This document shows positions 17,800 to 17,956 of a stretch of 32,766 nucleotides of DNA, piece by piece. Source of the stretch: an uncultured Gemmiger sp. (GTDB lineage: Bacteria; Bacillota; Clostridia; Oscillospirales; Ruminococcaceae). Position numbers and translations under genes: made by a program. Each line of letters opens with the position of its first letter. Position 1 is the first letter of the stretch. The stretch lies in NCBI GenBank assembly GCA_947628865.1, contig CANRBN010000004.1:1-32766 (forward strand), given 5' to 3'. The notes beneath the pieces were generated by a model. The model saw only the letters and a list, made by a program, of their open reading frames with translations, was not told the origin of the DNA and made no database searches.

Positions 17800-17956
17800 G
17801 CGGCGGGGTGAGGGCACCCCGCCCTACATGGGACGCGTGCGGCGGGGTGAGGGCACCCCGCCCTACATGGGTCACGTGCGGCGGGGTGAGGGCACCCCGC
17901 CCTGCATGGGTCACGTGCGGCGGGGTGAGGACACCCCGCCCTGCAAGGGGTCACGT
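17800..17956. repeat. Four tandem 39-40-bp hairpin units between groES and groEL
   Basis: Units at 17800-17838, 17839-17877, 17878-17916 (39 bp each) and 17917-17956 (40 bp), then the first bases of a fifth. Each unit holds the perfect 9-bp inverted repeat GGCGGGGTG-AGGG-CACCCCGCC (AGGA loop in the last) joined by CCTACATGGGTCACGTGC-like spacers with small changes. On the groESL mRNA they form four identical stem-loops before the groEL ribosome binding site. There are no unique spacers, so it is not a CRISPR array. Confidence 0.93.

Follow-up and report, generated by a model that had tools for sequence, protein, structure and literature searches.

In the window analyzed, the whole 32,766-nt stretch of DNA, a row of palindromes lies between groES and groEL. 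Does this row serve the chaperonin operon, or did it come to rest there as mobile DNA? REPs are short palindromes tagged by GTAG; they are non-autonomous DNA that can be cut and rejoined in single-stranded form by a chromosomal RAYT (TnpA-REP). The row is best explained, with a probability of roughly 0.85, as a REP insertion that was amplified in place and has no dedicated role in the operon. Judging from the GroEL matches, of which the nearest named records are from an uncultured Gemmiger sp. MAG (91%) and Faecalibacterium (83%), the genome is probably that of a Gemmiger-type gut bacterium.

Architecture of the groES-groEL array

The operon is encoded on the minus strand. groES (Cpn10, Pfam PF00166; 18004..18288) is preceded by a perfect CIRCE operator, TTAGCACTC-N9-GAGTGCTAA, at 18330..18356, the established HrcA site. 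It is followed by groEL (Cpn60, Pfam PF00118; 16133..17764). Most of the 239-nt spacer between the two genes (17765..18003) is occupied by four tandem 39-bp units. Perfect 9-bp-stem palindromes, GGCGGGGTG-N4-CACCCCGCC, are found at 17802-17823, 17841-17862, 17880-17901 and 17919-17940; the expected number in the window is 0.16, and four were reached in none of 100 shuffles. TRF delimits the array to 17799..17963, with a period of 39 bp (a 22-bp hairpin plus a 17-bp spacer) and 4.2 copies. Palindrome search, shuffles and TRF therefore agree with the first-pass annotation, which had described four tandem units with perfect 9-bp stems in a 239-base gap. The Rfam scan of the window returned tRNA only and no other match.

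Read in the mRNA sense, each unit consists of G(T/C)AG followed by GGCGGGGTG-N4-CACCCCGCC, and all four are single REPs in one orientation. The unit nearest groEL (17802..17827, minus strand) has GTAG, the 9-bp stem and the loop CCCT, and the second from groEL (17841..17866, minus) has the same tag and loop. In the third (17880..17905, minus) the tag has decayed to GCAG while the loop is still CCCT, and the unit nearest groES (17919..17944, minus) has both the decayed GCAG tag and a TCCT loop. "Identical stem-loops", as the units had been called, is thus accurate for the 9-bp stems but not for the one TCCT loop and the two GCAG tags. When the sequences are compared unit by unit, the variants are common to neighboring units, which argues for the stepwise duplication proposed earlier.

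The array is separated from the groEL ATG (17764-17762) by 37 nt, and the first stem base lies 63 nt past the groES stop. The Shine-Dalgarno sequence AAGGAGAG is at 17772-17779 (minus strand), and the ATG at 17764 with this site is the likely groEL start. The groEL frame is also open through the array (16133-17914, minus strand), giving 593 aa from a GTG and encoding GRGALTPP repeats.

Dispersal of the unit and the RAYT homologue

The unit is found throughout the 1.8-Mb genome. There are 15 exact matches to the palindrome, 33 to the class GGCGGGRTG-N4-CAYCCCGCC and 88 within 3 mismatches, versus 10 for a reversed control pattern. Other tandem arrays have periods of ~31, 61, 68 and 122 bp. The spacer is repeated inside each array and differs between arrays, which suggests the arrival of a single REP followed by local duplication of its site. 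The 33 exact class copies and the further arrays bear out one of the earlier proposals, that of a dispersed palindromic element that multiplied locally. Two of the arrays, at groESL and between the RAYT gene and hisC, are intergenic; the statement covers these two loci, as the gene calls behind a wider survey of REP context were unreliable. The home-made gene finder was faulty in this GC-rich genome (for example, it called a false plus-strand ORF over groEL), and the counts of REP orientation were discarded.

In 491 kb of sampled genome, GTAG adjoins 57 of the 310 hairpins with a stem of at least 8 bp, on one side only and in no case on both. A short palindrome with a 4-nt loop, a one-sided tag, many dispersed copies and a RAYT gene with the same REP are features of the GTAG superfamily that are present here. 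Judged by sequence, the groESL units are REP elements of GTAG-superfamily architecture, and the array is not specific to the operon. They resemble the REPs described by Di Nocera et al. (2013; PMC3733652) in the 9-bp stem, the 4-nt loop, GTAG at one end and high copy number, in tandem clusters that include flanking DNA and in REPs near RAYT genes. GYAG variants of the tag are allowed in some families. Head-to-tail arrays are common in this genome, whereas PMC3733652 describes them as rare in most of its families; its text has no mention of Firmicutes or Clostridia. According to Bertels and Rainey (2011; PMC3116915), the REP/REPIN clusters of Pseudomonas fluorescens SBW25 are likewise ordered tandem clusters with flanking sequence and even REP spacing. 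The SBW25 REPINs are described there as inverted pairs, whereas the groESL array is made of single same-orientation REPs inside a housekeeping operon. REP clusters reiterated in tandem with flanking DNA were already known from these two sources, and the groESL array adds one more case.

The genome also carries a 152-bp element consisting of two different REPs arranged tail-to-tail, in at least 24 copies that are 99-100% identical (24 places in this genome, G000: loci L018, L022, L027-L030, L188, L189, L191 and L230-L259). It was otherwise seen only in the congeneric species G175, as 9 diverged copies. In most of the 21 copies read, a terminator-like hairpin (about 12-28 bp) beside the element is repeated on both sides, and the mean shared flank is 18 bp versus 6.8 for shuffled flanks, as would result from insertion at terminators that are duplicated in the process.

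One RAYT homologue is present in the genome (L016:3439-3930, 163 aa). Among NCBIfam families it matches NF047646 best (E=1.8e-15), with 57 bits versus a curated cut-off of 80, which is a naming threshold rather than a biological definition. The homologues of relatives score 54-77 bits against NF047646, all below the 80-bit cut-off. Because the score falls under the cut-off, the protein is named here a RAYT homologue of a divergent group. The HUH histidines H83 and H85 and the catalytic tyrosine Y146 are invariant in 15 homologues, and the closest PDB profile match is 4er8 TnpArep (E=8.4e-10). A second Y1 transposase near a contig edge (L039:60-353, G000:C49; 97 aa) was rejected as a RAYT; it is of the IS200/IS605 type, NF033573 being the better match.

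The RAYT homologue lies between hisD and hisC (L016:1979-5384, G000:C13), with 12 tandem REPs directly behind it and one REP of the same class inside its reading frame. The sister species G175 has an ortholog, 75% identical, in the same hisD-hisC position with four REPs of period 35. Twelve versus four REPs, of another period, beside orthologous genes indicates that the size of the REP array changes independently of gene inheritance. REPtrons as described (PMC8266576, PMC6006769) likewise have the HUH and Tyr motifs, a gene present once, adjacent cognate REPs and a stable chromosomal position, here hisD-hisC in two species. This REP class occurs in 7 of the 35 congeneric genomes, all 7 of which have a RAYT homologue; 17 of the 35 have one overall (hypergeometric p about 0.003, calculated by hand and ignoring kinship). 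Some points count against the REP reading: the 57 versus 80 bits of the RAYT homologue, GCAG in two of the four groESL units, and the relative G154, which has many REPs of the class but no matching RAYT among the loci read. In the Stenotrophomonas system (PMC8266576), a GCAG substrate is barely cut. Since two of its units carry GCAG, half of the groESL array may no longer serve as a substrate.

The array in relatives and in the operon

A spacer of a few tens of bases had been stated as usual, and this holds in 28 of 29 congeneric species, where the groES-groEL spacer is 30-61 nt and carries no hairpin unit. Among the 30 spacers, including its own, the array occurs only here and in G175. Relatives such as G154 and G174, which have 31 exact class REPs at other genomic sites, have none at groESL. 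The first-pass annotation had proposed searching the genome and relatives for the unit; the search found it scattered genome-wide and, at groESL, in only one of 29 congeneric species. With 28 of the 29 lacking the units, no general function of the operon depends on them.

The G175 copy is part of a 1017-bp block (17212..18228) that is identical in the two species, includes the whole array and has diverged flanks. Identity to G175 in 250-bp windows around the block is about 55-96%, the edges are sharp, and spacer and synonymous sites within it are equally identical. Rather than slow conservation, this pattern fits recent homologous recombination between species or a chimeric contig of metagenomic origin, and the G175 copy, lying within the block, is not a case of independent conservation. 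Those sharp edges, as a chimeric contig would show, and the nature of the genome, a MAG of 204 contigs, raise the question of whether misassembly misplaced the array or the whole block. Such an artefact is quite improbable: the units have private differences and are not perfect copies, REP arrays of other periods are found in other species as well as at many further loci, and the array is present in two separate assemblies.

Could the array act in the mRNA? The computed minimum fold, -134 kcal/mol, pairs arms of different units, versus -125 kcal/mol when four local hairpins are enforced. The row of separate stem-loops envisaged earlier is therefore one possible fold but not the computed minimum. 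A single stem is computed at -18.2 kcal/mol at 37 C and -14.7 at 50 C. The groEL ribosome-binding site lies outside the array, and the predicted accessibility of the groEL Shine-Dalgarno is 0.63 whether the array is present or removed in silico. A hairpin row in a heat-shock operon invites the idea of an RNA thermosensor, or of an intrinsic terminator or attenuator between groES and groEL, but these are the least probable of the readings considered, with next to no chance of being correct. A thermometer hairpin covers the Shine-Dalgarno and melts with heat; in silico, the groESL stems leave it uncovered and are still folded at 50-60 C. The thermosensor-like role suggested at first is not supported, given these stabilities and the unchanged accessibility. 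An intrinsic terminator is a GC-rich hairpin followed directly by a U-tract; the groESL units do not have this form, and no terminator-like site was found in the groES-groEL spacer on the mRNA strand. The genome-wide scatter of the unit also speaks against both.

Co-option is an unlikely reading too, although better placed than the other alternatives: REP-derived hairpins would now stabilize the groES mRNA ahead of them or label a site of RNA processing, shifting the GroES:GroEL ratio. The tuning of this ratio and the mRNA protection proposed earlier are likewise not favored. The array lies in a transcribed gap and its stems are computed to be very stable. REP hairpins are reported as exonuclease barriers in PMC12306157, and in Agrobacterium the groESL transcript is reportedly cleaved between the two genes (cited in PMC3989490). 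However, the array is absent in 28 of 29 congeneric species, its identical G175 copy sits within the shared block, and predicted access to the groEL start is the same with or without it. REPs are reported to lower translation when they lie <16 nt beyond the preceding stop codon (Liang et al. 2015, cited by PMC12306157), and the first groESL stem is well beyond this window. Literature searches gave no specific report of REPs between groES and groEL. Since the array is clear of both the groES stop and the groEL ribosome-binding site, it probably affects the operon little; there may be a modest change in 3' decay or in processing between the genes.

The REP insertion preferred here draws on results of sequence comparison: the units have REP architecture and are dispersed in the genome, same-class REPs accompany the one RAYT homologue, the copies were duplicated locally and most relatives lack the array. 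One REP would have inserted into the groES-groEL gap in this lineage, presumably through the action of the genome's RAYT homologue. It would then have multiplied head-to-tail, taking 17 bp of flank along with each copy, probably by slippage or unequal exchange. The resulting array would be transcribed and would at most slow 3' exonucleases.

REP pairs inside RAYT coding sequences

In 22 of 36 RAYT genes of this bacterial family (some loci being orthologous or fetched twice), the coding sequence itself contains an inverted REP pair: L016:3439-3930, L167, L168, L170-L173, L202, L204-L208, L046, L048, L052-L054, L056, L177, L199 and L200. The pair was found in none of 20 RAYT genes from elsewhere in the phylum, 6 of which have a single internal REP. 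The internal REPs are in opposite orientation with the GTAG tags mostly outside; they usually stand near codons 40 and 97, in frame and flanking the HUH motif, and fall in variable loops of the RAYT protein alignment. REPs occur at 2.1 per kb within RAYT genes versus 0.12 per kb at distances above 600 bp. The two REPs of a gene resemble one another, and they vary from species to species: across the first seven stem bases, identity is 0.84 within a pair versus 0.57 with the copies of other genes (reached in 0 of 10000 shuffles, kinship ignored). At one locus, L208 (G169:C138), at least six internal REPs, alternating between two types, enlarge a RAYT-like frame, which is probably a decayed or amplified copy.

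The REP papers describe REPs that flank RAYTs or overlap the gene ends (PMC3733652, PMC6006769, PMC3116915), whereas here a pair is also inside the gene; no description of an internal pair was found in the accessible text of this open-access literature. G174 and G173 carry the internal REP type at dispersed genomic sites too. Such a match does not hold everywhere: the dispersed class of G154 has no counterpart among the RAYT loci read. The RAYT frame might hold a protected master pair that seeds dispersed copies such as the groESL array, a hypothetical role that we put forward tentatively and consider somewhat less probable than even.

A suspected operon regulator thus becomes a REP insertion, which cautions against inferring function from rows of hairpins in operons. 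REP/RAYT systems and multi-locus tandem arrays are documented here in gut Firmicutes, a group barely mentioned in the REP literature as far as its accessible text goes. The embedded REP pair, if general, would offer a testable explanation of how an enzyme keeps its match with substrates scattered over the genome.
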